Assembly: GCF_030123105.1 (NCBI RefSeq)
Contig: NZ_CP126095.1
Location: 5,704,001-5,768,000 of the forward strand
Reading direction: 5' to 3'
Length of the DNA: 64,000 bases
Source: Paenibacillus sp. G2S3
Lineage (GTDB): Bacteria > Bacillota > Bacilli > Paenibacillales > Paenibacillaceae
Shown in pieces: positions 10,488-48,881 of the stretch. Under the pieces are notes generated by a model. That model was not told the origin of the DNA, did no database searches, and worked only from the letters and a program-made list of their open reading frames with translations. A program made the translations under genes and the position numbers. Within the stretch, counting starts at the first letter, position 1. Every line of letters begins with the position of its first letter.

Positions 10488-10669
10488 TTGGACTCCAGAG
10501 TCGCTATTTCCGAAAAAACGCCTCTTTGGGGCAACTATCGGACTCCAGAGACACTACCGGCGCAAAATGACAGCATTATGGGCAATTTTTCGAGGAATAG
10601 CGCCTCTCCAGTCCGAAATTATTCAAAAAAGGCTCTAAATTGGCAAATAGCTGCATCTGAGTCCGAAAG
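10488..10669. repeat. Intergenic palindromic element, copy A
   Basis: Four modules: TTGGACTCCAGAGTCGCTAT (10488) and TCGGACTCCAGAGACACTA (10538) in direct orientation, then inverted GCGCCTCTCCAGTCCGAA (10600) and CTGCATCTGAGTCCGAAAG (10651). The GGAC cores start at 10490 and 10540, the GTCC cores at 10611 and 10661, giving spacings of 50, 71 and 50. The dyad axis is at 10577. A diverged partial module may continue to about 10740. It lies between the MATE 3' end and the minus-strand terminator at 10275-10323. Open frames over it are not genes. Confidence 0.8.
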
Positions 10670-10782
10670 CACATCGCCCTTCAGCAAACACACTCCGCTG
10701 CCGTCACAAAATGCTACTCAACAAACAAAGTCCGACTCTAAAAGCACTCCATTGCCCACCAGGGTGGACTATAGAGTTCCGC

Positions 10783-12180
10783 TCATGTAGTTAACGAAGC
10801 GCTTCTTTTCCCGGCTCCATGTAGTGAGGCATTCTCTTCACTCAAGCCGATATCCGCCTGACGGAGAACTTTTCTCCCTCTCCAGCGCATTAGAACAAGC
10901 ATCCCCCGCACAAATTCATCAGCAATCATACAGCAGTAGATCCCCGTGAGCCCCCAGCCTAAGCTGATTCCAAACCAGTAAGAACATCCCACTCCAATAA
11001 TGGACATAGACACGATAGAAGTATACATCGTATAACGGGTATCGCCGATGGCGTTCAGCGCATTACCCATGCCCATGTTCAGCATTTTGCAAGGTTGCAG
11101 TAGGAGATTTAGGGCCAATAGGGAAATCCCAATCGCAATAATCCGCGGGTCAGAAGTGAAATAACCTAGCAGATTCCTGCCGAAAAGAAATAGCAGTAAC
11201 ATGTTCGCTGTTACAATGGCCAAGCCGATATACAGTGTTCGATATGCACTACGATAGGCCTCTTTCAGTTTGCCTGCCCCGAACAAATGCGCAATCTGTA
11301 TCTGTCCGGCTAGCGCGATTGCATATCCTAACGTGAAGCAAAAGGACTCTAAGGTATTAAGATAAGTCCGTGCGGCTAACGCTTCAGCTCCCAGTGCGGC
11401 TAGAAAGGAATAAACAATCAGCTGCGAGAACACCCAGCAGGAAGAATTAATTCCAAGTGGCCAAGCAATCTTTATAATTTCCTTGAATAACTTACCGTTG
11501 AATATACGAAAATCTCTAAGTCTAATCTTAATCTCGAACGAACCTCTAAACATGCTATACAGCATGATCACTCCGACCAGTCTACTGATAATACTTGAGA
11601 TCGCAATTCCCGCAAGCCCTAGCTGTGGCAGACCGAACATCCCGAATATAAAAATATAGTTCAGAATAATGTGGATGACATTTATGATGATCCCTGTGTA
11701 CATTGGTCCTCTGGTGTTCCCTGTATTACGAATCGCTGTACCAAGGGAAGCAATCATCCCTACCAAAAACAGACCGCCGCCGACATACGAGATATAGATA
11801 TTGGACAGTGATAATAGCTCAGGCGATATATTTAGAATCCCCGCTATTGGACCCGCATAGAAGAACAGGATGATACTCACGACAATACCAAGGATCAGAC
11901 TAACCGATACGCCCATAATTGCAATCGTACGCGCTTCGCTGAAACGTTTTGAACCCATTCTTTGCGCGATCAGGATACCTGCCCCACCTGCAAAGGTGGT
12001 AAAAAGTGTGGTCAACGCACCGAACAATTGATTGGAAATGCCGACTACGGCAACTGCATCGTCAGAAATACGGCTGACCATGAGCGTATCCACCGTACCT
12101 AGCAGGGTCTGTAGAATCACCTCTATAAATATAGGCCAAGCCAATACCCATAGTCCAAAGCCCTGTCTTTCTTTTTTCAC
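10783..12180 (-). CDS. MATE-family multidrug/organic-cation efflux transporter
   Basis: About 465 residues, twelve hydrophobic helices in two pseudo-symmetric halves. The first helix carries WPIFIEVILQTLLGTVDTLMVS, a typical MATE opening (PxxxxxxLxxxxGxxDTxMVs); the middle has GNTRGPM and GDTRYTM in equivalent positions of the two halves. Such proteins export cationic compounds by Na+ or H+ antiport at the cytoplasmic membrane. The start is GTG 12180, eight nt after AGAGGAGGG; the frame is open further upstream but lacks a better site. It is divergent from the AraC gene at 12342 with a 160 nt shared control region, so that regulator may control it. No terminator was seen before repeat element A. 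The substrate is unknown. Confidence 0.9.
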   Translation of the reverse strand: MKKERQGFGLWVLAWPIFIEVILQTLLGTVDTLMVSRISDDAVAVVGISNQLFGALTTLFTTFAGGAGILIAQRMGSKRFSEARTIAIMGVSVSLILGIVVSIILFFYAGPIAGILNISPELLSLSNIYISYVGGGLFLVGMIASLGTAIRNTGNTRGPMYTGIIINVIHIILNYIFIFGMFGLPQLGLAGIAISSIISRLVGVIMLYSMFRGSFEIKIRLRDFRIFNGKLFKEIIKIAWPLGINSSCWVFSQLIVYSFLAALGAEALAARTYLNTLESFCFTLGYAIALAGQIQIAHLFGAGKLKEAYRSAYRTLYIGLAIVTANMLLLFLFGRNLLGYFTSDPRIIAIGISLLALNLLLQPCKMLNMGMGNALNAIGDTRYTMYTSIVSMSIIGVGCSYWFGISLGWGLTGIYCCMIADEFVRGMLVLMRWRGRKVLRQADIGLSEENASLHGAGKRSASLTT

Positions 12181-12341
12181 TAAACAAACCCTCCTCTTAA
12201 ACCAAACATATAGACTGGACCAAAGAAACAGCATATTTTTTCTTTAGGTCAGACTAAATTATAGATGATATACTTTTGGTGATGGTACAGATTTCAAACC
12301 AATAATTTCATTATTCCAACCTCATAAAAGGAGATCTCTCC

Positions 12342-13223
12342 ATGAACATTTTTAATTTTACCGTCCCGCCAATGCTCTACTATATCGTAAGTGGATTGCA
12401 CTCCTTCTCACCCGGTCATTACCACATGAGCCGTCACAATATCAAGGTGTTTGACTTGCTTGTAGTCAAGCAGGGTTGCCTATATATGAATGAAGGAGGT
12501 CTCACCTTTCAGATTAGAGCAGGTCAGGCACTGCTTCTTCGCCCAGATAGTCATCATTTCAGTACAGACAGCTGTAAAGAGCCCACCTCTTATTACTGGC
12601 TTCATTTTCAGACAGTGGGCGATTGGACTCTCTCCGAGGCTACGGCTACAGCACCAGAGACAGAACACACCAGAGCGGAGCATCCTCTTCATTCTGACGA
12701 ATTTAATATACGCACTTTTACCTTACAGCTGCCCCAATATACCACTTTGCTACAACCGTCCAAGATGGAAGAACTGCTCTCGCAGCTGAATCAACTAGCG
12801 CCTAATTCCCATTTGAGCGATACTCCATTTCAGCAGCAGTTGCTATTCCAAGAGGTTCTTCAGCAATTATCCGCCTCTCTGAGCCAAGAGCGTCCCTCTC
12901 CCTCGAAAATATGTGCGGAGCAAGCTGCCTCCTATCTGCGCAGTCATTTTCGCGAGCACATCACAGCACAGCAGCTTGGGGAGAACCTGAACTTTCACCC
13001 TGTATATATCGCTCGCTGCATGAAAAAGGAGTATGGCTGTGCACCCATGGATTACCTACTGCACTACCGGATTCAGCAGAGTAAACTGTTACTGATGCAG
13101 ACTAGTTATACGATTGCCCGGATCGCCGAGGAGGTCGGTTTCAATCAGGCACCTTATTTCAGCTTCAGCTTCGTCCGTATTGAGGGGACCACTCCACGGG
13201 AATTCCGCCAACGTTTCTCGTAA
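12342..13223 (+). CDS. AraC-family transcriptional regulator with N-terminal cupin domain
   Basis: 293 residues. The N-terminal ~160 residues look like the AraC cupin sensor (FDLLVVKQGCLYMNEGG, then the RAGQALLLRPDSHHFS turn). The C-terminal ~100 residues form two helix-turn-helix motifs: ITAQQLGENLNFHPVYIARC in the first, and YTIARIAEEVGFNQAPYFS followed by TPREFRQRF in the second. The start ATG follows AAAGGAGAT at good spacing. It is divergent from the MATE transporter and converges on the binding-protein gene at 13298. Its likely target is the MATE gene or its own promoter; the effector, possibly a sugar, cannot be told. Intact. Confidence 0.9.
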   Translation: MNIFNFTVPPMLYYIVSGLHSFSPGHYHMSRHNIKVFDLLVVKQGCLYMNEGGLTFQIRAGQALLLRPDSHHFSTDSCKEPTSYYWLHFQTVGDWTLSEATATAPETEHTRAEHPLHSDEFNIRTFTLQLPQYTTLLQPSKMEELLSQLNQLAPNSHLSDTPFQQQLLFQEVLQQLSASLSQERPSPSKICAEQAASYLRSHFREHITAQQLGENLNFHPVYIARCMKKEYGCAPMDYLLHYRIQQSKLLLMQTSYTIARIAEEVGFNQAPYFSFSFVRIEGTTPREFRQRFS

Positions 13224-13244
13224 CCCTAAACACGCTAAAGAACG

Positions 13245-13289
13245 CAAAAAAGGGCTGCTCCCCGCCACATGGCTTAAGGAACATCCCTT
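13245..13289 (-). terminator. Terminator of the first sugar ABC operon
   Basis: AAGGGATGTTCC and GGAGCAGCCCTT pair with two mismatches around a ~16 nt loop, followed by six T on the minus strand. It lies just past the stop of the binding-protein gene at 13298. Confidence 0.7.
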
Positions 13290-13297
13290 GCTGCTCT

Positions 13298-14902
13298 TTA
13301 CTTCAAACCCTTCTCCTGTACGTAAGCATCCCACTGCTTGATATATTCGGTCTGGATTTTCTCAAGACCGGCTTGCTTAGCCTTTTCCATAAAGGTGGCT
13401 AGACCCGCATCAACATCCTCTACCAATCCAGCTTGCAGCGGATACAGGTATTGCTTCTCTACCTGCTCCAACGCCGCTTTTTCAGCCTGATAAGAAGTAT
13501 AATCCTCTGCAAATCCTGTGAAGATATCCGGTTTCTGAATCTTATCAAGCTCAGCGAAAATCTCTTTGACGCCATCATAAGATTTGTCGAATATCATAAA
13601 TTCCGGATTCCGCCATGCCCAGCCGTTCATCCCTTCACGAGTGAAACCGTTCGTAGAAGCGTCTCCAATCAGTTCATAATAACCATTCGCATCAACCTTA
13701 TAATTTTTTCCTTCAACACCGTATTGCGTCAACTGATTATAACGTTTATCCATAACCATCTTCTCATAGAAGGCTAATGCACGATCCGGGTTTTTGCTGC
13801 CCTTCGGAATAGCGAACCCATTATGAATAGGGTGCACCGGTGTTGCGTAACCGATGGTTTTACCGTAAGGATAATAACCCAGCTCCCAATCTGGATGGGC
13901 TGCTTTAACTTTCATCAGCGTATCGTTGAAGCGGGTCGGGTTATCTCCAAAAATACTTGCCGCTTTTCCTGCAATAATCGGAGCTTGAAGAGTATCCTTC
14001 ACATTCAATACATTTTTGGAGATTAAGCCTTTTTCCTGCCATCGTCTCATGGTCAGCAGTTCCTCTTTATGTTCCTCCGAGCCCCAGTAAAGATAAGCCT
14101 TCGAAGGATCGCTGTACTTGATTCCGATACCATAAGGCAGCGGGCTTCCGACCATAGCGGTAAGTGTGGTGTAGACATCATGCAGATTCCCCCTAACATC
14201 ACTGTTAAAGGATGCCGGCGACATCTTCGGTTCATTCTTCTTTATACCTTCCATATAAGCCTCATAGCTGGCCAGATCGGTTGGCTGAGGCAGATTATAT
14301 TTCTTGCGAAGATCCTCACGCCATACGAAACCATTCGTTACATATTCCTTATAGGTCGCAGGTACAGTGTAGATCTTGCCATCAATCTTAACTGCATCCC
14401 ACATATCCTGCGGTACAAATTGCTGGAGCGCTGGAGCAGCCGTCGGCAGCAAATCATCTATAGCTAAAAAAGCTCCTTTTTTAGCGTAAGCTTGATACTG
14501 TGTCCAGTCCGCAGTGAAGATCAAATCAATCGATTGGCCAGAAGACAGCAGCAATTTATACTTCTGATCCCAATCTGTCCAAGTTGTATAGTTGAATTTA
14601 ACGGTAGCATTCAGATCTTCTTCAGCCATCTTATTAATTTCCGCTTCAATGCTCGAAAGATCCTTAGGGGCATCGCCCAGCATATAAAATTGCAGTTCAA
14701 CCTTCTTCGATGTATCCAGCCCCGTTTTCTCCTCTGTCCCGGCGTTGGTACTCTGAGCTGTCTCCCCTCCGTTGTTGCTCTCTTTTACCGCTGCATTATC
14801 CCCGTTCGTGGAACTAGAATTTCCCCCACAGCCTGCCAGTAGAGCCAAGCTCAGTACTGAAGTGAGCAGAATAGACATGCTTTTGCCCCGTAGCTTATTC
14901 AT
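13298..14902 (-). CDS. Extracellular carbohydrate-binding lipoprotein of ABC importer (LplA type)
   Basis: 534 residues. A lipoprotein signal ends LALLAGCGGN, followed by a low-complexity Ser/Asn/Gly linker, then a family-1-type solute-binding fold with LQFYMLGDAPKDLSSIE near the start, as in LplA-like proteins that capture oligosaccharides. The C-terminus ends EYIKQWDAYVQEKG, also usual for this group. The start ATG has GGGAGG upstream. It is the last gene of a three-gene operon: permease 16884-15883, permease 15871-14978, then this gene. No ATPase is encoded here; such systems normally use a shared MsmX-type ATPase. The sugar is unknown. Intact. Confidence 0.9.
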   Translation of the reverse strand: MNKLRGKSMSILLTSVLSLALLAGCGGNSSSTNGDNAAVKESNNGGETAQSTNAGTEEKTGLDTSKKVELQFYMLGDAPKDLSSIEAEINKMAEEDLNATVKFNYTTWTDWDQKYKLLLSSGQSIDLIFTADWTQYQAYAKKGAFLAIDDLLPTAAPALQQFVPQDMWDAVKIDGKIYTVPATYKEYVTNGFVWREDLRKKYNLPQPTDLASYEAYMEGIKKNEPKMSPASFNSDVRGNLHDVYTTLTAMVGSPLPYGIGIKYSDPSKAYLYWGSEEHKEELLTMRRWQEKGLISKNVLNVKDTLQAPIIAGKAASIFGDNPTRFNDTLMKVKAAHPDWELGYYPYGKTIGYATPVHPIHNGFAIPKGSKNPDRALAFYEKMVMDKRYNQLTQYGVEGKNYKVDANGYYELIGDASTNGFTREGMNGWAWRNPEFMIFDKSYDGVKEIFAELDKIQKPDIFTGFAEDYTSYQAEKAALEQVEKQYLYPLQAGLVEDVDAGLATFMEKAKQAGLEKIQTEYIKQWDAYVQEKGLK

Positions 14903-14977
14903 CTGAATCCTCCCTTTTCACTATGATTCTATGTTAGCCGACTTTACCTAAGCCCGGGTAGGGGTAAGGTTGCGGTT

Positions 14978-15871
14978 CTAACCTTTTACAGCTCCGATGG
15001 TCAACCCTTTGACGAAGTAACGCTGAACGAACGGGTATAGAAATAGAATCGGTCCCGTCACAACAATCGCCATCGCCATTTTGGTAGACTCAGCAGGGAC
15101 TTCCGTAGCCAGCGACACCCCAGTTCCAGCTCCCATTTGCGCAATGAACTGCGCTGAATTGATAACATTGTACAGATAGAATTGCAGTTGATATTTATGG
15201 GTGTCATTAATGAACAGTGAAGATGTGAACCAGTCATTCCAGTAATACAATGCCAGGAACAATCCAACTGTAGCGATCCCTGGCATGGAGAGCTTGAGCA
15301 CGATCTGCCAGTAGATTCTGAAATCACCGGCCCCGTCTATTTTTCCAGAATCGAACAACTCCTCGGGGACTGCTGATTTAATGAAGTTCTTCATTAAAAT
15401 AATCAAGAATGGCGTCATCAGACCAGGTAGCACCAGTACAGCATAGGAATCTAGCAAGCCGAGGTATTTGGTGATCATGATGTACCACGGGACAAGTCCT
15501 CCACCAAACAAAGTCGTAAAGTATATATAGAAGGAAAAGGTATTCCGATATTTAAAATCCTTGCGGGCTAACACGTAACCGGCCATTGTCATGAAGAAAA
15601 GCCCAAGTATCGTTCCTATCAAAGTTGTGGTGGCTGTGACGGCATACGCACGCAACACTTCATCCGGGAAGATGAATACTGTCTTATAGCCTTCAAGGGA
15701 GAACTGCCCCGGAATCAGATGATAGCCATCCCGGATAATAGATTCATTACTAGTCAATGACGCCGAAATTATTAGCAAAAAGGGCAGTAAACAAGCTATC
15801 GACAGACCAATGATGACCACATAGGCAATCCAATGAAGCATTCGAGTATATTTATCCGTTTGAATTCTCAT
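14978..15871 (-). CDS. Carbohydrate ABC transporter permease (LplC/YtcP type)
   Basis: 297 residues, six membrane helices. The binding-protein-dependent permease loop for ATPase contact is present as SGKIDGAGDFRIYWQIVLKLSMP (EAAxxDGAG-type). The C-terminus PFVQRYFVKGLTIGAVKG is the classic end of YtcP/MalG-like subunits. AGGAGG precedes the ATG. It starts 11 nt after the partner permease stops, so the two are co-transcribed and form the membrane heterodimer. Intact. Confidence 0.92.
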   Translation of the reverse strand: MRIQTDKYTRMLHWIAYVVIIGLSIACLLPFLLIISASLTSNESIIRDGYHLIPGQFSLEGYKTVFIFPDEVLRAYAVTATTTLIGTILGLFFMTMAGYVLARKDFKYRNTFSFYIYFTTLFGGGLVPWYIMITKYLGLLDSYAVLVLPGLMTPFLIILMKNFIKSAVPEELFDSGKIDGAGDFRIYWQIVLKLSMPGIATVGLFLALYYWNDWFTSSLFINDTHKYQLQFYLYNVINSAQFIAQMGAGTGVSLATEVPAESTKMAMAIVVTGPILFLYPFVQRYFVKGLTIGAVKG

Positions 15872-15882
15872 TTCTTATCCTC

Positions 15883-16884
15883 CTAGAACAGGGCGTAGTC
15901 ATCGTTTATTTTGCGAATAATATAGTTGACCGTCATAATCAGGACAAAGCCGAACAAGGATTGATAGACTCCGGCAGCTGTTGCCATGCCCACATCGAAG
16001 GTTACTTTAAGCGAACGGTATACATAGGTATCAAGAATATCTGTCGTATTGTAGAGCAGCCCGTTATTGCCTATTAATTGATAGAAAAGATCGAACTGGC
16101 CTTTCATGATACTGCCGAGCGCGAAGAGCAGCAGCACTACAAAGGTTGATTTCAGCATCGGCACCGTAATATACCAAATTCGTTGAATAATATTAGCGCC
16201 ATCAATCTTGGCCGCTTCATAATATTCGTCACTGATGCCTGTAATCGCCGCCAGATAGATAACCATGCTGTAGCCGAGATTTTTCCAAAGATAAAAGATT
16301 ATGATCAGAAAGATCCAAGCCCAAGGTTTACTGTAAACGTCGACCGGATCAAGGCCAAATTGGATGAGCATTGTGTTTAAGAAACCGCTGTCATAATTAA
16401 ACAAGTTGTAGACGATTACGCTGAGAATTACAAAGGATACGAAATAGGGCAGAAACATTACCGATTGGCTAATCTTTTTAAACCATTTTCCATTGAGTTC
16501 ACTAAGCAGGATTGCACAGGCAATCGCCAGCACATTCCCCAGTACAATAAAAGCGATATTGTATCCTATCGTGTTCATTGTGAGCTTCACCAGCGTACCG
16601 GATCTCCAGAGAAACTCGAAATTCTGCAACCCGACAAACTTGGAATTGAACATACTACTGTTGAAGTCGAATTGAGTGAACGCATAATAGATGCCTACCA
16701 TTGGAAAATAGGAATTCACCAGAAAAAAGATCAAGGTGGGCAGCAGCATCAGAAACATTACCCGATTGTGCACCAGTTCATACAGAAATCCTTTCTTCTT
16801 TCTTCTCGTTCGTAAGCGTGCTCTACCATCAGCCTGGATGCCAAGTTCGACGGTTGAGATTCCTTTGGATGAGGTTTGGCTCAA
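15883..16884 (-). CDS. Carbohydrate ABC transporter permease (LplB type)
   Basis: 333 residues, six membrane helices after a basic N-terminal tail. It opens its membrane part with FLMLLPTLIFFLVNSYFPM and has the ATPase-contact loop EAAKIDGANIIQRIWYITVP. The start is TTG 16884 after AGGGGAG at 9 nt. This is the first gene of the operon and is divergent from the membrane AraC regulator at 17272, which is the usual arrangement for a sensor-regulator controlling its cognate importer. Intact. Confidence 0.92.
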   Translation of the reverse strand: MSQTSSKGISTVELGIQADGRARLRTRRKKKGFLYELVHNRVMFLMLLPTLIFFLVNSYFPMVGIYYAFTQFDFNSSMFNSKFVGLQNFEFLWRSGTLVKLTMNTIGYNIAFIVLGNVLAIACAILLSELNGKWFKKISQSVMFLPYFVSFVILSVIVYNLFNYDSGFLNTMLIQFGLDPVDVYSKPWAWIFLIIIFYLWKNLGYSMVIYLAAITGISDEYYEAAKIDGANIIQRIWYITVPMLKSTFVVLLLFALGSIMKGQFDLFYQLIGNNGLLYNTTDILDTYVYRSLKVTFDVGMATAAGVYQSLFGFVLIMTVNYIIRKINDDYALF

Positions 16885-17271
16885 GTTCTCTCACTCCCCT
16901 TAATATAGAAACTGCATAATTCCACTATAGGGAGATTCTCCTGAACACAGAAGTGAAGCTTACAAGCCTTATTGCACAAACTTGCGAAACAGGGACTGAA
17001 CAATTGGGGTATTTATGTAAAAGTACTCAAGAGCCTTCGAAAGACCTTAAGGCTTGTCTATTTCCGATTAACGCTTATAATTCTTGTAGAAAATGCTGTT
17101 ATGTACACAAATATTTAGTTTGTTCACTACCTGCAGATAGGAAAAATACAGCATTCTAAGGTTGCTTCACTGTTCCGTTCACTCTTAGCGATTTATAATA
17201 AAAGAACTTCATAAGATGAATTCACCCAGAGCCTTACCCAAGGAAGTTATATGATGATCAGGGGGGACGGT
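16885..17271. other. Divergent control region of sugar importer and AraC sensor-regulator
   Basis: About 390 nt without a credible gene. It should hold both promoters and the regulator's binding sites. I saw no clear cre box, riboswitch or long inverted repeat; short open frames here have no supporting ribosome site. Confidence 0.5.
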
Positions 17272-19506: not shown

Positions 19507-19529
19507 TACTAATGACCTCTCTACTCCAA

Positions 19530-19578
19530 AAAGATGGGTGCTCCAGCAGCCATTTCAACGGCCTTTGGAACACCCATC
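19530..19578. terminator. Bidirectional-looking hairpin terminator
   Basis: GATGGGTGCTCC and GGAACACCCATC pair at 11 of 12 positions. On the minus strand it is followed by CTTTTTGG, so it was probably the terminator of the broken minus-strand gene at 19592-19783. It can also end the AraC transcript. Confidence 0.65.
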
Positions 19579-19591
19579 GTTATCCTTTAGA

Positions 19592-19955: not shown

Positions 19956-19984
19956 TGATCGCAATACTACTTAACTTATCTATT

Positions 19985-20023
19985 AAAAAGGCAGACTACC
20001 GTTTTTTGGTAGCCTGCCTTTTT
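19985..20023. terminator. Strong bidirectional terminator
   Basis: AAAAAGGCAGACTACC and GGTAGCCTGCCTTTTT form a 16-position stem with one mismatch and a T-rich 7 nt loop. It sits between the LacI remnant and the collagen-like gene. Confidence 0.85.
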
Positions 20024-22525: not shown

Positions 22526-22557
22526 TAGTAATATAAGATTTAAAATTTCTTAATCTT

Positions 22558-22739
22558 TCGGACTCAGATGCCGCTATTCGTTCATTTATCGCCTCAAAGA
22601 GGGATTTTCGGACCGGAAAGACGCTATTGAGCAAAAATGGGGGTCAACTTCGTCTTTTTTGTGCAAATAACGCCTCTGGGGTCCGATAGCAATCCAAAAG
22701 AGGAGAATACTACAAATAAGAGCCCCTAAGTCCGATAGC
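22558..22739. repeat. Intergenic palindromic element, copy B
   Basis: Direct modules TCGGACTCAGATGCCGCTA (22558) and TCGGACCGGAAAGACGCTA (22608), then inverted AACGCCTCTGGGGTCCGATA (22669) and GCCCCTAAGTCCGATAGC (22722). GGAC cores start at 22560 and 22610, GTCC cores at 22681 and 22731: spacings 50, 71 and 50, identical to copy A. It ends about 60 nt past the cysteine desulfurase stop, where no ordinary terminator was found. Confidence 0.8.
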
Positions 22740-27240: not shown

Positions 27241-27425
27241 TCATCCTCTCTCCATACGCTTACGAGGTTAGCTGTCGGATTCGGGCAGTGAGAGTTGCCC
27301 TACCTGTATGGATGCACTACTATGCACCTGTAACAGGATTCACCCCATAACTAGTAACGACGGTTACATCGATTCCCAGTTGTTGGTTCCCCCGCTTTCC
27401 ATAACGGAAATTAAGCGGACTTCTT
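27241..27425 (-). ncRNA. c-di-AMP riboswitch (ydaO/yuaA leader)
   Basis: The minus strand shows the conserved ydaO elements in order: GTCCGCTTAA at 27420, GGAAAGCGGGGGAACC, GGGGTGAATCC, TAGGGCAACTCTC, and the closing CCGACAGCTAACCTCGTAAG before GAGAGG at 27245. This RNA class binds cyclic di-AMP and usually turns expression off. A sigma-A-like promoter lies upstream and a terminator hairpin follows, then the alpha/beta hydrolase gene. Known targets are mostly potassium transporters and cell-wall enzymes, so this target is unusual. Confidence 0.92.
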
Positions 27426-27449
27426 ATGTAATTGTCAGTTATGTGATGA

Positions 27450-38646: not shown

Positions 38647-38671
38647 ATGAAACACCTTGCTTCCCCTAGAG

Positions 38672-40203: not shown

Positions 40204-40344
40204 GATGTTCGCTCCAATCTCCTAAGATAAGGCTCACTTTTCTTATGAAAATATATATTATGCTATCACAATTGGATATTGTTGTGAATTCATAATTTTT
40301 CCTTCTTTTGCTTGAACTAGTGTTTTCCTCCTTAAAAAAACAAC

Positions 40345-40379
40345 AAAAAAACGATGCATCTAGACTCTCAGACACATCG
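40345..40379 (-). terminator. Terminator of the ada transcription unit
   Basis: CGATGTGTCT pairs with AGATGCATCG (two G-T wobbles) and is followed on the minus strand by seven T. It lies 31 nt past the ada stop. Confidence 0.8.
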
Positions 40380-40409
40380 AAATTAGTACACTTTTAGTAG
40401 ATATTCTAC

Positions 40410-41461
40410 CTAGGAACTACGGTTGTTCTCATGATTGATTAACCATTCTTTTCTTGCAATCCCGCCGCCATAGCCGCCTAATTCACCGTTACTATTGATC
40501 ACTCGATGACACGGGACCAAGATCGATAATTGATTCGCTCCATTAGCTCTGGCTACCGCACGACAAGCAGAAGGGTTGTTTATATTCTCTGCAAGCTCCT
40601 TGTAAGATACCGTCTGACCTACAGGAATTCTTCGGAGTTCATTCCATACCTTTTGCTGAAAATCAGAGCCTAAATAACGAATCGGCGTTTGGAATTCCGT
40701 AAGATTACCTGCGAAATAGAGAGTTAATTCCTCTTCAATCTGCTCTAGCACGGGTACTTTTTCAGGCAAAAGAGTTGCATTTAAGCGGGTACGTAATCTC
40801 TTAATCTCGTTCTCAAGTCCCTTTCGATCCACGAATTCCAGCAGTAAAAGGTACTCTTCATCTGCGATCGCAAGCATAGATCCTAATAACGTTTCTATCC
40901 AGGTACAGTACAGCACTTTAATCTGCTTGGAGTGATTCGGGACCGTCCCCATCGTTCGTGAAAAAGCATCTCTAAATCCATTACTCGAATCGTATCCGCT
41001 GTCCAGCTGTGCGTTAATGATAGAATCCCCATTCCTGATATGTTTGAATGCCAGCCCTAAACGTCTTGAACGTGCATATTCAATAAAGGTCATTCCAAAT
41101 TGCTTCTTAAATTGTCGGCGTGCTGTATTTGCACTAATCGACAGCTCATCAAAATCTTTATCGGTCCATTTTCTTTCCGGATTATGCTCAATAGCTTCAA
41201 CAAGAAGCTTTACTTCTGAAGACATTTTCGTGGGATTGGACAAGGGTTGGCATCTTTTACATGGTCTATATGACGCTAACAAAGCTTCTTTGGCTGTTGC
41301 GAAAAACTCGCAATTTTCTTTATATGGCTTTTTAGCCGGGCAAGTTGGCCTGCACATAATACCTGTTGTTTTTACGCCGACAAAAAATACACCTTCATAA
41401 TTGGAGTTTTTTCGACTAACATCTCATAATATTTATCGATTTGCTGTTTATTAGTGATCAT
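40410..41461 (-). CDS. ada: Bifunctional transcriptional activator / O6-methylguanine-DNA methyltransferase (one frame break)
   Basis: Restored length is 350 residues. The N-terminal Ada zinc domain begins MITNKQQIDKYYEMLVEK and continues GVFFVGVKTTGIMCRPTC with the cysteines of CRPTCPAKKP and YRPCKRCQP. A central AraC helix-turn-helix follows (ISANTARRQFKKQFGMTFIE). The C-terminal methyltransferase has the acceptor Cys in ILVPCHRVINSNG. The protein repairs alkylated DNA and activates the adaptive response once methylated at the zinc site. The break is one missing base in T6 at 41407-41412. The start is 7 nt after the previous gene's stop, so the two are co-transcribed; the ribosome site is weak. 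Confidence 0.93.
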
Positions 41462-41468
41462 AGTATCG

Positions 41469-42256
41469 TTAGCTCATTTCTAAATAATGTGCGGGTCGCT
41501 GCAGAATGATTCGAGCATTATCTTGAATATTATGCTGTGCTTGAAAGTAACTATACGGACCATAGCTAATTCTTTTTACGCCAAGCTCCTGCAATTCAAC
41601 ATTTGAAATCATACCATCCATTACCATAACATTTACAGGCAGTGGTGACTGTTGCACAAAATGTTCAATCAAACTTCGATCAGTGAGCCCTGGTATAAAA
41701 ATCCCATCCGCTCCAGCCTCAGCGTAAGCACAGGTACGCTCTATGGCTTCATTCACTAAATCCAAAGAATGCTTCCCATTTTTAAAAAGAGATCGGTTCT
41801 GGCGTTAATAAACACCTTCTTCTGAAGTTTGGCTGCCACTTGCTGTATAGTTCGTATACGATGACTTTGTTCCTCGATCGCCCATAATTCATCGCCCGGA
41901 TGATTCACCTTTTGATCCTCAAAATTAATCCCACAGATGTCTAGCTGGAATAATTGTTCCATGTTATTGGCTAAGGACTCTACATCTACAGCATACCCAC
42001 CCTCAATATCTACCGTCAATGGCACCGATACATGTTCTGCTATTCTCAAAACAGACCACAGCAGCTGCTCAAATGAGAGCTGTTCACCGTCCGAATATCC
42101 CCATGCGTCCGCCATAGCGAAGCTACTTGTGGCAATAGCCTGTGAACCCGCTTTTTCTATCGCTTTAGCCGAAGCTACATTCCAGCAGTTATACAGCATT
42201 AGCGGATTTTCTTGATCGTGCAAAGACTTAAAATAGTCATAGTCATTTCGGTTCAT
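41469..42256 (-). CDS. Isocitrate lyase / PEP mutase family enzyme (one frame break)
   Basis: Restored length is 262 residues. TIM-barrel motifs of the PEP-mutase/isocitrate-lyase superfamily: LYNCWNVASAKAIEKAG near the N-terminus, PLTVDIEGGYA (metal-binding Asp), GINFEDQ, and FINARTDLFLK, then YAEAGADGIFIPGL after the break. The catalytic KKCGH loop of true isocitrate lyase is not seen, so it is closer to the short 2-methylisocitrate-lyase, oxaloacetate-decarboxylase or phosphonopyruvate-hydrolase-like group; the exact reaction is unknown. The break is one missing base in T5 at 41779-41783. GGAGATGA precedes ATG 42256. It heads a two-gene unit with ada. Confidence 0.85.
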
Positions 42257-42412
42257 CAGTGGTCATCTCCATTAAATAGAATAGCACCACTATATAATAG
42301 CCATTGATCCGTCATACCAGAAAAATTAACACCAATCTTTTACGCAAAAAAACACCGATTGATGATCTCATCCTATAAGGACCTGATCATATCATCGATG
42401 TTAGTTTACAGT

Positions 42413-43344
42413 TTAAAGTTCTGCCTTACGGAGTGATGGTTTGGAGGATGGTTTGGGTGACTTTTTCCCTGTTCGCATCGGTATGATTTGTGGTGCCGCG
42501 ATTCCGATCAGAACGACGAAAATCCCAACCCACCGAAGCAGGGACACTTCTTCTTGCAGGACTAACACGGAGGCTACAACAGCTGCCGGCAACTCCGCCG
42601 CACCTAGAATCGTTCCCAGACCTGAACCCAGTTTCGGAACACCGATAGAAAAGAAAAGCACAGGAATAACTATACCAAGTAGTCCTAAAGGTAGACCATA
42701 CTTCCACAGTCCATCTGTAAGTGCTCCGTCATAAATAAAGGAAGGCGAAAAAACAACCATAATAATAATCATTGCACTTGTAGTCATATACAAGCTTTTA
42801 TTCACAGCAGGTACCTGCGTAGCCACTCTTCCACTGACAAAAATATAAAAGGCAAACGACACCGCAGACATCAAACCAAAAACAATACCACTCGTAGTCA
42901 TTTCGCCTACACTAGGTTCTAGAATCCCCCCAGCTAATATTGTTCCTATCAGAAGGATAAGCATCGAAATTACTTTCTCTCGACTAGGCCATTTTCTATC
43001 TACAACAGCCTCCAGAATCACACCAATCCAAGTAAATTGGAATAAGAGAACGATCGCAATCGAAGCAGGTAATTGTTCAACGGCAAATCCATAGAAGATC
43101 CCCGTCATACTAATGGTAATCCCAGCGCCTAATAACGAAGCACCTACTTTTAACCCGAGTTTTTTCGAGAAAATAATACAACTAACAATAGCAGCATGCA
43201 CCATCCAAAAAAGTATTGCGACCCGACCAGTTGCTGCATTCGAAAGCCATCATTCATTCCAAGCTTGACGATCGTGGAGAGCGATCCATAACTACATGCA
43301 CCTATAAATACTAGTAATGCATATTTGAGTAACTTCATATTCAT
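42413..43344 (-). CDS. EamA/DMT-superfamily transporter (one frame break)
   Basis: Restored length is 310 residues, ten predicted membrane helices in two EamA repeats. The first begins MNMKLLKYALLVFIGACSYG; the second includes GIVFGLMSAVSFAFYIFVSG and LGTILGAAELPAAVVASVLV. These proteins export metabolites or amino acids. The break is one missing base in T6 at 43160-43165, joining FSRKK to LGLKVGASLL. ATG 43344 follows an AGAAAGGAAAG site. It has its own promoter and a leader ending in a strong hairpin, suggesting regulated attenuation. The substrate is unknown. Confidence 0.88.
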
Positions 43345-43402
43345 CGTAATTCTTTCCTTTCTGTTGAACCGTCCTATTGAACCGTTCAAATCACATAATA
43401 AA

Positions 43403-43515
43403 GCCCCTTGTCATCGAAATGACAAGGGGCGACTGAAACCAAAGAATACATCTTTGACAAAATTCCGCCACTCCATCCACAGGATAGAGTTTGGTTTATT
43501 TACTTATAACAACAC
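43403..43515 (-). promoter_or_regulatory. Structured leader with attenuator-like terminator upstream of the EamA gene
   Basis: On the minus strand AACCAAA and TTTGGTT enclose a small hairpin (CTCTATCC/GGATGGAG) and an unpaired stretch. These are followed by GCCCCTTGTCAT pairing with ATGACAAGGGGC and TTTATTAT. The terminator lies 59 nt before the start codon. I could not match it to a T-box or to any riboswitch class I know. Confidence 0.6.
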
Positions 43516-43520
43516 GGATT

Positions 43521-43549
43521 ATAATATGATAAATCACACAGGGTGTCAA
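43521..43549 (-). promoter_or_regulatory. Sigma-A-type promoter of the EamA leader
   Basis: TTGACA and TATTAT with a 17 nt spacer on the minus strand, placing the start of transcription just upstream of the structured leader. Confidence 0.75.
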
Positions 43550-43579
43550 CTTGAAATGTTTACATTAGACTCATTTCGG

Positions 43580-46237
43580 TTATATTTCAAATTCTTCTGT
43601 AGAATTTGAAAGACCACCATTCTGTACACCACTATTATTGGCTACAGCAAGAACATACACCTTATATTTGACACCTTTAACAATTGAATCGCCGTTAACA
43701 TCCCTTGTCGCAGTGGATATGGAAGGATTCGTCCCGTTAGGGGTTACAGACGTATAATACGAGGACCTCACCTCAATAGCATCCGCAGAACCAAAACCTT
43801 GTTTGGAAGGAACCACCAATACTCGATATTCTGAAATATTGGACTCATTGGCTGATTTTACGAAACTAATCAGGATTCTCCCATTCTCCTCTTTATACGT
43901 TACATTGGTTACAGAGCTCACTGGGCTCTTAGTCGTAGATAACGTAATAACCGATGACTCCCAGGACAAAGCATTTGGACCGGCATAATTCCCACTACCG
44001 ACAGATAACACATACACTTTATAGCTGGTTCCATCCTTTATCAAATTGCCACGTACGTCTCTGGCTGAGGCATCTAATACTTGACTCGTACTATTGCCTG
44101 AAGTACTTACCGAAGTGTAGTTTGAACTGGATACATTATTCGCTTCGGATAGGCTGAAGCTGCTGTAATAGGACGTAGGTACCACCATAATCCGGTATTG
44201 GTTAATGTACGTTTCATCTGTGGCATGGCTAAATGACACCTTCAAATCTCGGCCATCGCCATAGTCGTTAACATCACTAACACTCAAGTTTGTAACGGCC
44301 TTTACGCTGGAATCATTCAACAATGTAATGACTGATGAAGCGGATGAGAGCACATTCGAATCCCAATAAATCCCGCTTCCGATGGTTAACACATACACTC
44401 TATAGCTAGTTCCATTCTTTATCAAAGCGCCGAGAACGTCTCTAGTTGACGAATTCAATACTTGACTGGTAGAAGACCCAGATGTACTCACCGATGTATA
44501 GTTGCTACTTGAAACATTATTCGCTTCAGCTAAACTAAAGCTGCTGTAATAGGATGTGGGTACTACCATAATCCGATACTGGCTAATATAGGTTTCGTCC
44601 GTCGCATGAGTGAAGGATACTCTCAAATCTCGGCCATCACCATAGTCGTTAACGTCACTGACATTCAAGTTTGAGACGATACTCACACTAGAATCATTCA
44701 ACAACGTAATGACCGATGAAGGTGACGAAAGCACATTGCCAGTATTACTGCTTCCAATAGAAAAAATATATACTTTATAGTTGACTCCATTCTTTATCAA
44801 AGCTCCACGTACATCTCTGGTTGATGAAGTCAATACTTGATTGGTTGTAGTACCTGTTGTACTCACTGCTGTATAGTAGGCACTGGTTATATTATTGGCT
44901 TCAGCTAAACTAAAGCTACTGTAATAGGACGTCGGAACTACCAGGATACGATACTGGCTAATATAGGTTTCGTCCGTCGCATGAGTAAATGATACCCTCA
45001 AATCTCGGCCATCATTATAGTTGTTAACGTCGCTAACACTTAAGTTAGAAACTCCTATGTTGGACAGCGTAATTGCTGATGAAACAGAAGACAACACATT
45101 ATTTGCTGCATTACTGCTATCAATTGCCATGGCAAACACTCTGTAGCTCACGCCAGTTTTAACAAGAGCTCCGTCCACATCTCTGGCTCCTGAAGATAAA
45201 ATTTGCGTGATATTATTACCCGTCTTGCTGACTAACGTGTAATTAGCACTGGTCACATTATTTGCTGTAGCTAAATTAAAATTCGAATAATTAATAGCTT
45301 TGACAACAAATATCCGATAAGAACTTACCTTCGACTCATCTGACAGCTTATTGAAGCTTACCGATAAATCTCTTCCATCCCCATAATCGCTTATATCATT
45401 TACTTGTACATTATTTATTGCCGCTACAGTCTTATTCACTAGTGTCATAATGGAGGACCCACTAGAAAGTGCACTAGTATTACTTCCTTTACCAACCGTC
45501 AAGACATAAGCCACATACGCTTGATTACTCTTAATTGAATCACCATCAACCGTCCTCGAAGCAGACGTCAATTGAATCGAAGGATTAGTGCCTGTTGGTA
45601 ATACCGTAGAATAATTGTAAGAGGTTATCGTTTGTGCGGACGACAAGTTGAGAATATTCCCTGATTTCACAATCAAAACACGGTAATGATCCACTAGTGA
45701 CTCATTTGCCGCTCGAGTGAAGCTAACCTGAAGATCACGACCATCACCGAAATCACTCACATCCTGCGCTACTACGTTGGATACTGGGCCTGCATTTCCA
45801 ACGTTAGAGGCTGAAGTCGTTATTGTTACTACTTGCGTCTTGGGGTTCCATCCCACTTCATGACCCAGTGCTTCACTGACGAACCTTGTTGGAACCATCG
45901 TTCTCCCCTTCAGATTCAAACCAGGCACGTCTAGAGTTACAGCCTTATTGTTAATGGTGGCGGTCTTTGAGCCAATCTTTAACATAATCGTTGTATCATC
46001 TTTAGTTGCAGTTACAGTTTGTGCTTTTTGATTCCACTTGATGGTGGCATTAAAGGCTTCGAAAATAGCCCGCAACGGCACCATCGTCCGTCCATTCACC
46101 ATCACCGGTGCTTGATCTGTAGATAATCGAACCCCGTCAATAATAATACTGATCGGAGTAGCAGCCTTTACAGAGGATTGAAACATCATCGGAAAGACTA
46201 CTAAAACTACTAAAATTGAAATCCATAACTTCTTCAC
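43580..46237 (-). CDS. Secreted protein with copper-amine-oxidase N-terminal-type domain and six tandem Fn3-like modules
   Basis: About 885 residues, intact. A signal peptide (KKLWISILVVLVVFPMMFQ, cut after VKA-A) leads to a pair of copper-amine-oxidase N-like repeats: NGRTMVPLRAIFEAFNATIKW and GRTMVPTRFVSEALGHEVGW. These domains are common in Paenibacillus surface proteins and are not themselves oxidases. Six modules of ~115-130 residues follow, each opening like SDVNDYGDGRDLRVSFTHAT and containing YRIMVVPTSYYSSF. Modules three to five are near-identical at DNA level, with a period of about 375-381 nt. GTG 46237 follows AGGAGGGTG at five nt; no enzyme domain is seen. Likely an adhesive or cell-wall stalk. 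Confidence 0.85.
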   Translation of the reverse strand: MKKLWISILVVLVVFPMMFQSSVKAATPISIIIDGVRLSTDQAPVMVNGRTMVPLRAIFEAFNATIKWNQKAQTVTATKDDTTIMLKIGSKTATINNKAVTLDVPGLNLKGRTMVPTRFVSEALGHEVGWNPKTQVVTITTSASNVGNAGPVSNVVAQDVSDFGDGRDLQVSFTRAANESLVDHYRVLIVKSGNILNLSSAQTITSYNYSTVLPTGTNPSIQLTSASRTVDGDSIKSNQAYVAYVLTVGKGSNTSALSSGSSIMTLVNKTVAAINNVQVNDISDYGDGRDLSVSFNKLSDESKVSSYRIFVVKAINYSNFNLATANNVTSANYTLVSKTGNNITQILSSGARDVDGALVKTGVSYRVFAMAIDSSNAANNVLSSVSSAITLSNIGVSNLSVSDVNNYNDGRDLRVSFTHATDETYISQYRILVVPTSYYSSFSLAEANNITSAYYTAVSTTGTTTNQVLTSSTRDVRGALIKNGVNYKVYIFSIGSSNTGNVLSSPSSVITLLNDSSVSIVSNLNVSDVNDYGDGRDLRVSFTHATDETYISQYRIMVVPTSYYSSFSLAEANNVSSSNYTSVSTSGSSTSQVLNSSTRDVLGALIKNGTSYRVYVLTIGSGIYWDSNVLSSASSVITLLNDSSVKAVTNLSVSDVNDYGDGRDLKVSFSHATDETYINQYRIMVVPTSYYSSFSLSEANNVSSSNYTSVSTSGNSTSQVLDASARDVRGNLIKDGTSYKVYVLSVGSGNYAGPNALSWESSVITLSTTKSPVSSVTNVTYKEENGRILISFVKSANESNISEYRVLVVPSKQGFGSADAIEVRSSYYTSVTPNGTNPSISTATRDVNGDSIVKGVKYKVYVLAVANNSGVQNGGLSNSTEEFEI

Positions 46238-46373
46238 AGATCCACCCTCCTGGAATGACGAATACATTTTTTACCTACTCATCTGACGCTTCTAAGTATA
46301 TAAAAGTTTCATGATTTATAGGTTACAAAAAATAATCTAGACTCTCCCCTCCATCCTCCACACCCCCTCTTGG

Positions 46374-46406
46374 AAAAGAAAAAGGAAAGAGCAGTGCGCT
46401 CTCTCC
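46374..46406 (-). terminator. Terminator of the PBP gene
   Basis: GGAGAGAGC pairs with GCTCTTTCC (one wobble) around a 5 nt loop, followed on the minus strand by TTTTTC. It lies 23 nt past the stop. Confidence 0.75.
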
Positions 46407-46428
46407 TTTCAATTATTCGTTCATATTT

Positions 46429-48481
46429 TTAACAATATTTTTTCGGAATTCCATCTAATCCATACTCCCAATCATAAGCATCAAAAATTTTTCTAGCTAC
46501 AGGTGCGGCGCTATTTGATCCGAATCCACCTTCTGGAATGACTACAGCCACAGCAAGTTTTGGATTATCACGTGGTGCAAAGGCTATGAACACTCCGTTA
46601 TCCCGGTTAATTTTTTTACTATCCGTTTGTTGTGAAGTCCCTGTTTTACGAGCAAAATCATAGGGGAAATCACCGAAGGCACTTTTAACGTCACTGTTCA
46701 TCCCTTTCTTGATTTCCCGCCAAAAGGACTTATCAAAATTGGTCACTTCATCAAGCACTTCCCGTTTGAATTCTTTGATAACCTTCCCGTTCGAGTCAGT
46801 AATTTTACTTACTAGCTGTGGTTTGATTCGTTGCCCTTCATTGGCTAAAGTAGCTGCATATTGCGCCAACTGAAGAACTGTGTAACGCCCCTGCTGTCCA
46901 AATGAAGCATACACAAGCGCAGACTGAACGGATCCAGCTTTCGCTTCAGCTTTATAATTCAAATCACCCAAGTATTCCCTAGGTAAACCTATCCCTGTTG
47001 GAATACCGAGACCGAATTCTTTCATATATGTGTCCCATACACCAATAGCCTTAGATTTGTATTTGTCGTACAATTTTTTCCCGATCATATCAACCATATA
47101 TACGTTTGAAGATTTTTCAATTGCTGTGTGAGGATACAAAGAGCCGTATACATGATTCGATGAATTCCTTACAAAGGTCTCATGTCCCTCTCTACCAAAC
47201 GAGGTAATTCCTTTATCTTGATAAGTAGAAGATGTATTTATAAAACCCTCTTTTAATCCAATCAGTACACTTAATGGTTTTATTGTCGAGCCGAGCAGCA
47301 CAGTGGATTCGAAATTATGCCCCGATCTTCCTGATGAAAAGGGAGTGATCGTTCCGTTTTGATAATGCTTTTCGATTTGTTCGTACTTCTCCGGTAATAT
47401 CGAACCCGTAGCCCAATAATTGGTATCATAATCAGGCATACTTGCCATCGTAATAATATTGCCTGTATCGACCTCCATGGCTACAGCGTAACCTGTTAAA
47501 GCATCAGGATGTGTTTCCCCCTGTACTGTATGCGAATGCAACCACTGAATCTGCTCTTTAATGGCCTCTTCGGTCTTCAGCTGAATTTTTTATTTATCGT
47601 GGTCCAGATATTGCTCCCTTTAACCGGGGGTTCAATATTAACGATTTTTTCCGCCATGTTCTGCGGATCTACTGAAACTTCCTTATAACCATTCTGTCCC
47701 CGCAGCTCCTTCTGGTATTGCAGCTCCAAGCCATCAAAGCCTACGAGCTCATCCTCTTTATAGTTAAGTCCAGGGTCCTGATTATTTTTCATCGCCTGAA
47801 GTACATCCTTATAAAGATCTAAACTTGTAGAGGATTTAAAAAACTTCACATAGCCAACAGCTTGTACAGCCACTGTATCGGTATCATAATGCCTAGAGCT
47901 TTCCTCTAACACTTCAAGATTAGGATATTCGTTTTTATGCTCCAAAAAATAAGCAATTTCTTTCTTGGATAAGCCTGATTTAATTCTTCGAGCCACATAT
48001 CCAGATGATTTTTTAGAATATAAATCCATGGCCTCAAGGATCTCTTCTGTTGTTATTTTTTTATCATTAGGATCACCATAGGTTTCGAAGGCTTCTGCTA
48101 ACTTGCCAGCCAGTGCCTTAGAATTATTATTTGCCTCAGCAGTTAATGTAGTTTTTTGGTCGTTTTATCTGTTTTTGTAGCAGTATATTCCTTTTGCAAA
48201 GTTAGATATAAAGATTGAACAGGCGTAGAATACGCCAATTCCTCACCTTCAGCCGCGAGAATACTCCCTCGGATAGCCGATAATGGCACTATTTTTGTAT
48301 CCCGATTAGCCTCAGCTTCAGTTAGCGTAGATCCTTCGACAAATTGCAAGACTGCAAGACGAAGGATAATCACACAAAAAATAATAAAAGTGCTAAAGAA
48401 AAAAATATTGATTCTTAATTCACCAGAGTTATTTATAGTTTTGCTGCCGCCTCGTATACCTTTTCCGTCGAAGAGTCTCAC
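46429..48481 (-). CDS. Class B penicillin-binding protein (transpeptidase), two frame breaks
   Basis: Restored length is about 684 residues. A short cytoplasmic tail and one membrane anchor (INIFFFSTFIIFCVIILRLAV) precede the PBP dimerisation domain. The transpeptidase domain has the active Ser in GSTIKPLS, the second motif SSN in IEKSSNVYM, and the third in FARKTGTSQQ. It cross-links peptidoglycan outside the membrane, in the PBP2/elongation-like subclass by size and layout; the exact paralogue is uncertain. Breaks are one missing base in T6 at 48152-48157 and one in T6 at 47586-47591. It is a single-gene unit with its own terminator. No SEDS partner is visible in the window. Confidence 0.9.
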
Positions 48482-48603
48482 ATAATCCCACTCCTTATTT
48501 CCAAAATTCTACAACATAAGAATCAAGTATAAACTAGCAAACTAAAATATACAAAATTAAGAATAATAGTTAAATAATTGTTCACAATCGATAATATCCA
48601 ATT

Positions 48604-48640
48604 AAAAAGCAGCGATCCTCGGGATGGGAGAATCGCTGCT
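48604..48640. terminator. Terminator-like hairpin upstream of the PBP gene
   Basis: AGCAGCGAT pairs perfectly with ATCGCTGCT around a 15 nt loop, with T runs on both strands. It separates the PBP promoter from repeat element C. Confidence 0.7.
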
Positions 48641-48698
48641 CTGTGTTTTTGGGCGGTGGTAGCCTGCACCTATGAATTGTCATCATTTGCTGAAGCTT

Positions 48699-48881
48699 AC
48701 GGACCCAGATGACGTTATTTGCAAGATTTTAGCCTTTGGAGCTTGGTTTCGGACTCCAGCGACATTATTCCCTTGGAAGAGGAGCAAATTGAGTACTTTT
48801 CATGCCAATAGTCGCTATGCAGTCCGTTGTCAATTCAAATGCAAAATAAAGCGGCGTTTAAGTCAGCTGTGTCCGATAGCT
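48699..48881. repeat. Intergenic palindromic element, copy C
   Basis: Direct modules ACGGACCCAGATGACGTTAT (48699) and TCGGACTCCAGCGACATTAT (48749), then inverted ATAGTCGCTATGCAGTCCGT (48808) and AGTCAGCTGTGTCCGATAGC (48861). GGAC cores start at 48701 and 48751, GTCC cores at 48822 and 48871: spacings 50, 71 and 49. It lies past the 3' end of the Fec-type permease gene, beyond another hairpin. The open frame across it is not credible as a gene. Confidence 0.78.

Follow-up and report, generated by a model that had tools for sequence, protein, structure and literature searches.

A helically phased four-module DNA element dispersed in Paenibacillus sp. G2S3 and its relatives: a possible platform for a wrapped nucleoprotein particle

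Three copies of an intergenic palindromic repeat lie in the 64,000-nucleotide stretch of Paenibacillus sp. G2S3 DNA analyzed here (the window; NZ_CP126095.1, positions 5,704,001 to 5,768,000), and they raise the question of what holds the geometry of such a repeat nearly constant while its sequence drifts. The original prediction had offered either selection on a hairpin fold or a non-autonomous mobile element. All three copies were recovered where they had been reported, each with two GGAC modules followed by two GTCC modules (Table 1). Core-to-core distances agreed with those predicted for copy 1 (50-71-50) and copy 3 (50-71-49), but copy 2 measured 50-71-49, one base off the predicted 50-71-50. 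In most genomes the module consensus is TAACG-N11-C[G/C]YTA (21 bp), with TWWCG as the left half in the G2S3 genome. The module pattern matched nine times in the window, eight of these inside the three copies, against 1.6 matches expected; as none of 100 shuffles reached nine, the copies are not due to chance.

Table 1. Positions of the three elements and their modules within the window.
Feature	Positions	Strand	Remark
Element copy 1, whole	10484..10670	-	orientation from profile
Copy 1 module 1	10490..10508	+	pattern match
Copy 1 module 2	10540..10558	+	4 mismatches
Copy 1 module 3	10596..10614	-	pattern match
Copy 1 module 4	10646..10664	-	pattern match
Element copy 2, whole	22554..22739	+	full length at orthologous G007 site; broken in five low-copy relatives
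Copy 2 module 1	22560..22578	+	pattern match
Copy 2 module 2	22610..22628	+	pattern match
Copy 2 module 3	22666..22684	-	pattern match
Copy 2 module 4	22715..22733	-	four-module element search
Element copy 3, whole	48695..48880	+	
Copy 3 module 1	48701..48719	+	pattern match
Copy 3 module 2	48751..48769	+	pattern match
Copy 3 module 3	48807..48825	-	four-module element search
Copy 3 module 4	48856..48874	-	four-module element search

Searches for further copies in this genome and its relatives found many. In the G2S3 genome, 78 loci together carry no fewer than 120 elements. The module pattern has 289 genome-wide matches vs 23 for the reversed pattern, and 90 four-module elements were identified in about 1 Mb of its sequence, consisting mostly of the surroundings of module-pattern matches. 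Tandem arrays occur at 17 of the 78 loci; linkers in the eight arrays inspected were homologous from unit to unit, indicating local duplication. Across an order-wide sample, family matches were present in 182 of 246 genomes and absent from 64, and copy number among congeners ranged from none found to over 120. Other families, as well as genomes beyond the order, show this architecture with different cores, the core depending on lineage (GGAC, GGACG, GGAAC or GAAC). Outside the order, the weak matches in G323 were convincing by eye, as was one with three modules in G857, from another class; those in G528 and G616 were unconvincing by eye and were discarded. No named repeat or RNA family among those searched matched the elements, in line with the initial impression of an undescribed family, and a literature search with subscription journals mostly outside its coverage found no earlier description of the four-module layout.

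Each element spans about 185 bp, with its modules (M1, M2, M3 and M4) arranged around a dyad. Start-to-start module spacing was exactly 50-56-50 bp (50-71-50 core to core) in 69 of 90 own-genome elements, in a search admitting only spacings of 49-51, 54-58 and 49-51; other genomes, searched with wide centre ranges, agreed with this. With cross-species spacer identity at 35% vs 25% by chance, the claim of conserved spacing despite drifting sequence was upheld. Throughout the element, A/T-rich positions are repeated with a 10.1-bp spacing, a pattern that ends where the element ends, periodic power being 3.5 inside elements vs 0.04 and 0.03 in the flanks (n = 90). In 40 own-genome elements the A/T period was 10.1-10.2, with a spacer power of 2.03, whereas the highest of 500 column shuffles reached 0.70; 40 further elements gave a period of 10.15. 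The bootstrap period was 10.10-10.15 in a set of 95 elements (spacer identity 0.347) selected on the M1-M2 doublet together with the position expected for the right half. Among close doublet pairs, the right doublet fell at offset 124-125 in 42 of 52. In genus g26 the outer spacings were 50 and 50 in all 31 elements and the centre was one helical turn longer (66 in 26 elements, 65 in four, 56 in one, none near a half turn).

Orthologous elements of G000 and G007, those of G007 having been selected by profile score, a criterion biased towards intact elements, contained 6 indel events vs 118 in their flanks across all 12 pairs, and 5 events (7 bases) vs 26 (181 bases) in the five pairs whose match was unbroken through both flanks. 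Divergence in the seven ungapped pairs was 4.5% in cores, 9.7% in modules and 19.6% in spacers. Copy 2 has a full-length orthologue in high-copy G007 and is broken in low-copy G134, G069, G058, G023 and G062; deletion remnants persist in four of these five relatives, and nearly nothing remains in G062. At the copy 3 site, G134, G069 and G007 carry unrelated sequence.

The ~175-nt hairpin originally proposed was not supported. The modules are complementary (68%), but no such complementarity exists in the spacers (39%) or the centre (37%), and spacers within one element paired no better than those taken from different elements (z 0.04 and -1.06). A structured RNA or hairpin-forming transcript would fit the stable folds predicted from the inverted modules (z < -2 against dinucleotide shuffles in 34 of 40 elements), a pair-count covariation score of 0.200 vs 0.159 shuffled that none of 500 shuffles reached, and, within the own-genome set, agreement between M1 and M4 (z 3.9; M2-M3 z -2.4, M2-M4 z 2.7). 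However, the fold excess mostly disappeared when the modules were kept and the spacers shuffled (mean z -0.70; z < -2 in 3 of 40). Direct-repeat modules in the named-genome set agreed as much as inverted ones, with z 3.1-5.9 for the pairs unable to pair in the hairpin (M1-M2, M3-M4, M1-M3, M2-M4) vs 1.1 for M1-M4 and 4.6 for M2-M3. We attribute the own-genome M1-M4 agreement and the covariation score, which point the other way, to members of a lineage or subfamily having module sequence types in common; mutual information on oriented elements was negative for compensatory changes in a fold. At the gathering threshold, Rfam returned a single match in the whole window, a riboswitch away from the elements, and at E up to 1 the copy 2 region gave sub-threshold matches only, mostly over the neighbouring terminator; no Rfam family was placed over the elements. 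Furthermore, 10.1-bp phasing and variants longer by 10 bp concern B-DNA. On the shuffled folds and the lack of within-element complementarity in spacers and centre, an RNA or hairpin role was rejected, and we consider it hardly credible. The phasing, the whole-turn change of the centre, the scarcity of indels and the non-complementary spacers instead indicate that the constraint acts mainly on double-stranded DNA geometry; of the predicted selection on a fold, the selection is retained and the hairpin is not.

The placement of the elements was examined in relation to neighbouring genes. Of 44 gaps holding elements, 20 were convergent and 4 divergent, vs 58 and 86 among all 342 gaps. Any insertion would likewise be least harmful in convergent intergenic sequence, a point counted against the wrapping reading given below. 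Replication orientation was considered and dismissed as a bias (47 of 78 loci, on an assumed origin), and the element gap around that origin was not unusual (P 0.65). An operator or enhancer of particular neighbouring genes would be compatible with the intergenic position and dimer-like modules, but divergent, promoter-bearing gaps are the least used. In the regions compared, no neighbour recurred beyond common families (e.g., ABC ATPases, response regulators, AraC, LysR and LacI types); a recurrent gene as partner was rejected, since only pairs of paralogues appeared, the ten annotated all belonging to common families. Regulation of neighbours is thus highly improbable. The convergent, intergenic placement and symmetric phased A/T-G/C pattern could also indicate a preferred DNA gyrase site, similar to BIME-2 or the strong site of Mu, where convergent transcription accumulates positive supercoils. 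This, too, seems improbable, if slightly less so: gyrase is to our knowledge universal, yet the elements have been lost in many species, and gyrase sites do not feature specific 21-bp modules whose cores differ by lineage. The known gyrase motif is likewise symmetric, phased and ~130 bp long, but according to PMC6379681 its period is 10.75 bp and lies in two 47-bp arms that flank a 36-bp centre; no such period was found in our elements, which keep 10.1 bp continuously through the centre.

The other answer originally offered, a mobile element, takes its strongest form as a persistent REPIN-like or MITE-like miniature element moved in trans by an unlinked recombinase, with the four sites forming a recombination complex and decay following loss of the recombinase. 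Highly variable copy number among congeners, the parallel decay in five relatives and the tandem arrays would all fit, as would two dispersed copies in G081 that are 90% alike, with similarity beginning at the element and stopping within about 6 bases of it. Against this, the inspected arrays are local, and only 2 of 2287 far pairs in the own genome exceed 80% identity, both involving one locus that shares some flank. Target duplications of 2-9 bp, tested at offsets 3-11, were not clearly enriched at any of them in 54 own loci and 93 named elements (best z 4.2, resting on three elements). Terminal inverted repeats exist (M1/M4), yet the inner M2/M3 carry the same kind of sequence, and the terminal bases are of no other kind than those of the inner modules. 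Once inserted, a transposon copy would be free to drift; the orthologous elements, by contrast, retain their spacing and have fewer indels than their flanks. An autonomous transposon with cargo between the halves was rejected because few M1-M2 doublets lack a right half (3 of 33 re-examined, with two more running off the stretch). A RAYT partner was also rejected: Y1_Tnp (PF01797) is present in 5 of 11 high-copy genomes (G007, G039, G014, G044, G022) and one of nine low- or no-copy genomes (G021), but absent from G068, G081, G158, G197 and the two genomes with most module matches, G001 and G000. Phage or plasmid origin was dismissed on the near-absence of matches, in queries that see only close relatives (among all viral contigs, a single stretch matched one pattern and nothing matched a second; no plasmid or phage record for the one element queried). 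Mobility in the form originally suggested was therefore not borne out, and the in trans version appears unlikely.

We consider it fairly probable, judging from sequence, that the element is a double-stranded platform for the assembly of a nucleoprotein particle with two-fold symmetry. Each module would be read by a dimer of a putative sequence-specific protein whose preference varies with lineage as the cores do, and the DNA would be wrapped with A/T minor grooves facing inward. A period below 10.5 suggests a left-handed wrap like that of a nucleosome, the handedness being inferred from the period only. The particle may act where it sits on the chromosome, in many cases flanked by the 3′ ends of convergent genes, in an architectural or topological role (e.g., supercoil insulator or anchor), with each site maintained by selection and the elements presumably decaying together once the protein is lost. 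Loss by deletion in relatives keeping few copies is counted in favour of wrapping, as are the preference for convergent gaps and the recurrence of the architecture with other cores. On the other side, no candidate partner protein was found, the neighbours in the regions compared being common families, and own-genome spacers are 47% identical, so common descent of the copies is visible there. In addition, patchy copy number and absence from 64 genomes would be odd for a basic chromosome-organizing element.

In the general view, positioned nucleosome-like particles with specific sites are absent from bacterial chromosomes. More tentatively, and with somewhat more doubt than belief, we propose that Bacilli carry a widespread counterpart of the positioned nucleosome, with up to over a hundred sites per genome, a phasing-encoded wrap of ~185 bp (18 turns, one genus having 19) around a dedicated protein core of four dimers, a recognition sequence co-evolving with a putative DNA-binding protein, and a set of sites that decays when that protein is lost. 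A family that reaches over 100 copies in some genomes, with strongly diverged spacers and strict phasing, points to a new nucleoprotein system, either chromosome-organizing or selfish, in this large soil-bacterial group, and sister species that have retained or lost the elements offer a natural genetic experiment.

Several known systems resemble this family in part. Nucleosome-positioning DNA has an A/T period of 10.2 around a dyad, comparable to the 10.1-10.2 bp observed here, but the present elements are bacterial and carry four sequence-specific modules. Resolvase res sites and tyrosine-recombinase intasomes combine several sites with helically phased spacings in wrapped complexes; they are single sites with a linked recombinase, whereas here over 100 copies are dispersed with no recombinase seen beside them. 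REP/REPIN-RAYT systems of Proteobacteria likewise place many intergenic inverted repeats in one genome and persist for long, but each REP is a short hairpin associated with a Y1 RAYT gene, in contrast to a 185-bp phased duplex whose spacers are not specifically complementary and whose carriers include six genomes without Y1_Tnp. The bcr1 repeat of the Bacillus cereus group likewise comes from Bacilli and is comparable in length (167 bp in a table of PMC2267715; 147 in work cited there), with mobile-element characteristics ascribed to it by a title cited in that paper; it is described there as a stem-loop family, and this description sets it apart from the present one. Strong gyrase sites and BIME-2 of E. 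coli share a symmetric, phased G/C alternation read as wrapping, and BIME-2 an intergenic position, but the gyrase motif as presented in PMC6379681 leaves its centre outside the periodic arms and is degenerate, without the fixed modules that characterize the elements described here.

Duplex-DNA geometry is the best-conserved property of the intergenic element, in which four modules (M1 and M2 direct, M3 and M4 inverted around a central axis) are separated by two spacers and a centre. The window spans bases 5,704,001-5,768,000, and its three copies lie where originally predicted. The predicted core-to-core distances held for copies 1 (50-71-50) and 3 (50-71-49), but copy 2, predicted as 50-71-50, was found to be 50-71-49. 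The module pattern gave 9 matches in the window, 8 of them within the three copies, far above the 1.6 expected by chance, and 289 matches genome-wide against 23 for the reversed pattern. The search for further copies in the host genome (a single contig of 6.70 Mb) was also borne out, with a profile recovering at least 120 distinct elements at no fewer than 78 loci. At least 17 of these loci hold tandem arrays of 2-5 elements; in the 8 arrays inspected, the linkers of successive units are homologous to one another.

Coordinates of the window copies and of other features observed
Feature	Sequence	Position	Strand	Observation
Copy 1	window	10484..10670	-	
Copy 2	window	22554..22739	+	
Copy 3	window	48695..48880	+	
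c-di-AMP (ydaO/yuaA) riboswitch	window	27241-27427	-	102 bits (Rfam)
Open reading frame	window	292-7827	-	2511 aa
Short degraded module halves	L053	7932-8000		head to tail without spacers, directly after three-unit array
Two elements in opposite orientation	L305 (Paenibacillus phocaensis)	1471-1614		adjoining or overlapping
Profile R1 match	L428 (G857, another class of the phylum)	1501-1628		three modules visible, E 8e-6
Possible variant	L404 (G591, other family of the class)	1475-1620		core AAGGCA...TGCCTT, two modules 50 bp apart; single weak match

A scan of about 1 Mb of the own genome, mostly regions retrieved around module matches, with allowed spacings of 49-51, 54-58 and 49-51, found 90 four-module elements; module starts are exactly 50-56-50 bp apart in 69 and off by 1-2 bp in the other 21. 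The elements are only partly symmetric, and the own-genome profile was built from 40 non-redundant elements (<80% identity) among these 69 after orientation. Across many genomes 64 elements were located, 45 with exact 50-56-50 spacing, 40 of these distinct. Among the 160 modules of the latter, 106 have TAACG as their left half (mostly TWWCG in the own genome) and 116 have C[G/C]YTA as their right half; the module itself is therefore a degenerate dyad, and each may be bound by a dimer. In named genomes the right half lay 105-107 from M1 in 113 of 131 cases, the other 18 scoring too low for placement. A second script found it within 1 bp of each spacing in 28 of 33 doublets below its threshold; three had no full right half (L248, L261 and one in L305) and two ran off the fetched stretch. 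In one genus (g26) both outer spacings are 50 in all 31 elements, and the centre, allowed to range over 40-84, is 66 in 26, 65 in 4 and 56 in 1, the additional 10 bp carrying one additional A/T peak. Steps of a whole turn, with no half-turn variants, are what binding of a protein to one face of the duplex would require.

In aligned own-genome elements, A/T content oscillates strongly with a period of 10.1 bp between the first module and the last, spacers included (spacer power 2.03 versus at most 0.70 in 500 shuffles). This phasing recurs in 95 named-genome elements selected for an M1-M2 doublet with the right half in its most common position (bootstrap period 10.10-10.15). Their spacer identity is 35%, composition alone predicting 25%; the corresponding own-genome values are 47% and 26%. 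Beyond the element the signal disappears (power 3.5 inside versus 0.04 and 0.03 outside, n = 90).

Carriers retain the geometry at orthologous sites; deletions have removed it in sister species. Twenty elements of the high-copy carrier G007 were fetched by profile score, 12 of them at loci orthologous to fetched elements of G000, likewise high-copy. The indel contrast, an upper estimate because choice by score favours intact G007 elements, was 6 events (8 bases) within elements of 175 bp versus 118 (1172 bases) in about 288 bp of flank per pair for all 12 pairs, several flanks holding larger rearrangements, and 5 (7 bases) versus 26 (181 bases) for the 5 pairs with a continuous match across element and flanks (L382, L383, L389, L393, L394). 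In 7 ungapped pairs the cores diverge by 4.5%, the modules by 9.7% and the spacers by 19.6%. Copy 2, which was not score-chosen, is full length in G007 with four modules and one changed core base in module 4; its site is broken by deletions in the low-copy sister species G134, G069, G058, G023 and G062. G023 retains an almost complete copy 3 and G062 a degraded one; in G134, G069 and G007 the site holds different sequence. Profile matches on both strands number at least 150 each in G000, G007, G001 and G081, 78 in G158, 29 in G134, 35 in G069 and 24 in G058; module matches number 37 in G062, and 18 in G023, an incomplete genome.

The element had been proposed to form a ~175 nt hairpin pairing modules 1 with 4 and 2 with 3, but it is not mainly a hairpin. 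Complementarity across the axis is 68% in modules, 39% in spacers and 37% in the centre, and spacers matched each other's complement no better within than between elements (0.391 vs 0.390, n = 40; 0.340 vs 0.351, n = 83). Predicted RNA stability stems mostly from the modules, and Rfam searches of the window found no family over the elements. Covariation, a check suggested with the original prediction, gave mixed results: the pair-count score exceeded all 500 shuffles and own-genome M1-M4 agree (z 3.9), which we count in favour of a hairpin or RNA, but spacers and centre showed no within-element pairing excess. We attribute both signals to module sequence types common to lineages and subfamilies. 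In the named set the non-hairpin pairs M1-M2, M3-M4, M1-M3 and M2-M4 agree within elements (z 3.1-5.9) as strongly as hairpin pair M2-M3 (4.6) and above M1-M4 (1.1); in the own genome M2-M4 also agree (2.7) and M2-M3 fall below chance (-2.4).

The main rival to a protein-bound duplex is a commensal element mobilised in trans. Y1 transposases (RAYT type) occur in 5 of the 11 high-copy genomes and in 1 of the 9 with few or no copies; G001 and G000, where module matches are most numerous, have none. No target duplication was found at 54 own-genome loci and 93 named elements. G007, G039 and G014 each have between five and nine matches to Y1 transposase, some of them interrupted by stop codons. Classed with a simple gene finder written for this analysis, 20 of 54 own-genome loci lie in convergent gaps, 20 in tandem and 4 in divergent ones, and 10 overlap short ORF calls; all gaps of at least 100 bp in the same regions, element gaps included, number 58, 198 and 86 respectively. 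Where neighbour genes match from one locus to another, they are paralogues belonging to common families. Under the favoured protein-bound duplex reading, a lineage-specific dimeric protein would occupy all four modules and the ~185 bp would be wrapped so that the A/T minor grooves face inward; a period shorter than 10.5 points to left-handed wrapping. The most likely role would be in chromosome architecture or supercoil insulation, to which we give roughly even odds if the DNA is wrapped.

Profile R1 matches 182 of 246 genomes of the order (E <= 0.001), 45 of 398 in the class sample (10 outside the order) and, at 1e-5, 7 of 398 in the phylum sample, with G857 outside the class. At E <= 1e-4 the broader profile R2 matches 47 of 398, of which 12 lie outside the order; these include the 7 genomes from which its seeds were in part drawn. 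Cores differ between lineages: GGAC(C/T), GGACG, GGAAC and GAAC occur, G323 has GGAT, and G330 and G585 carry palindromic versions. Named carriers among the matches listed (at least 119 stretches) are Paenibacillus species, a Paenibacillaceae MAG, Fontibacillus phaseoli and Cohnella caldifontis. On viral contigs, one stretch matches one pattern and none another.

No description of this four-module layout was found in the papers searched, and the accessible part of the P. vortex genome paper counts repeats without describing it. The gyrase motif (PMC6379681) has two 47-bp arms around a 36-bp centre; its 10.75-bp period is confined to these arms, whereas the shorter period of the element runs continuously.
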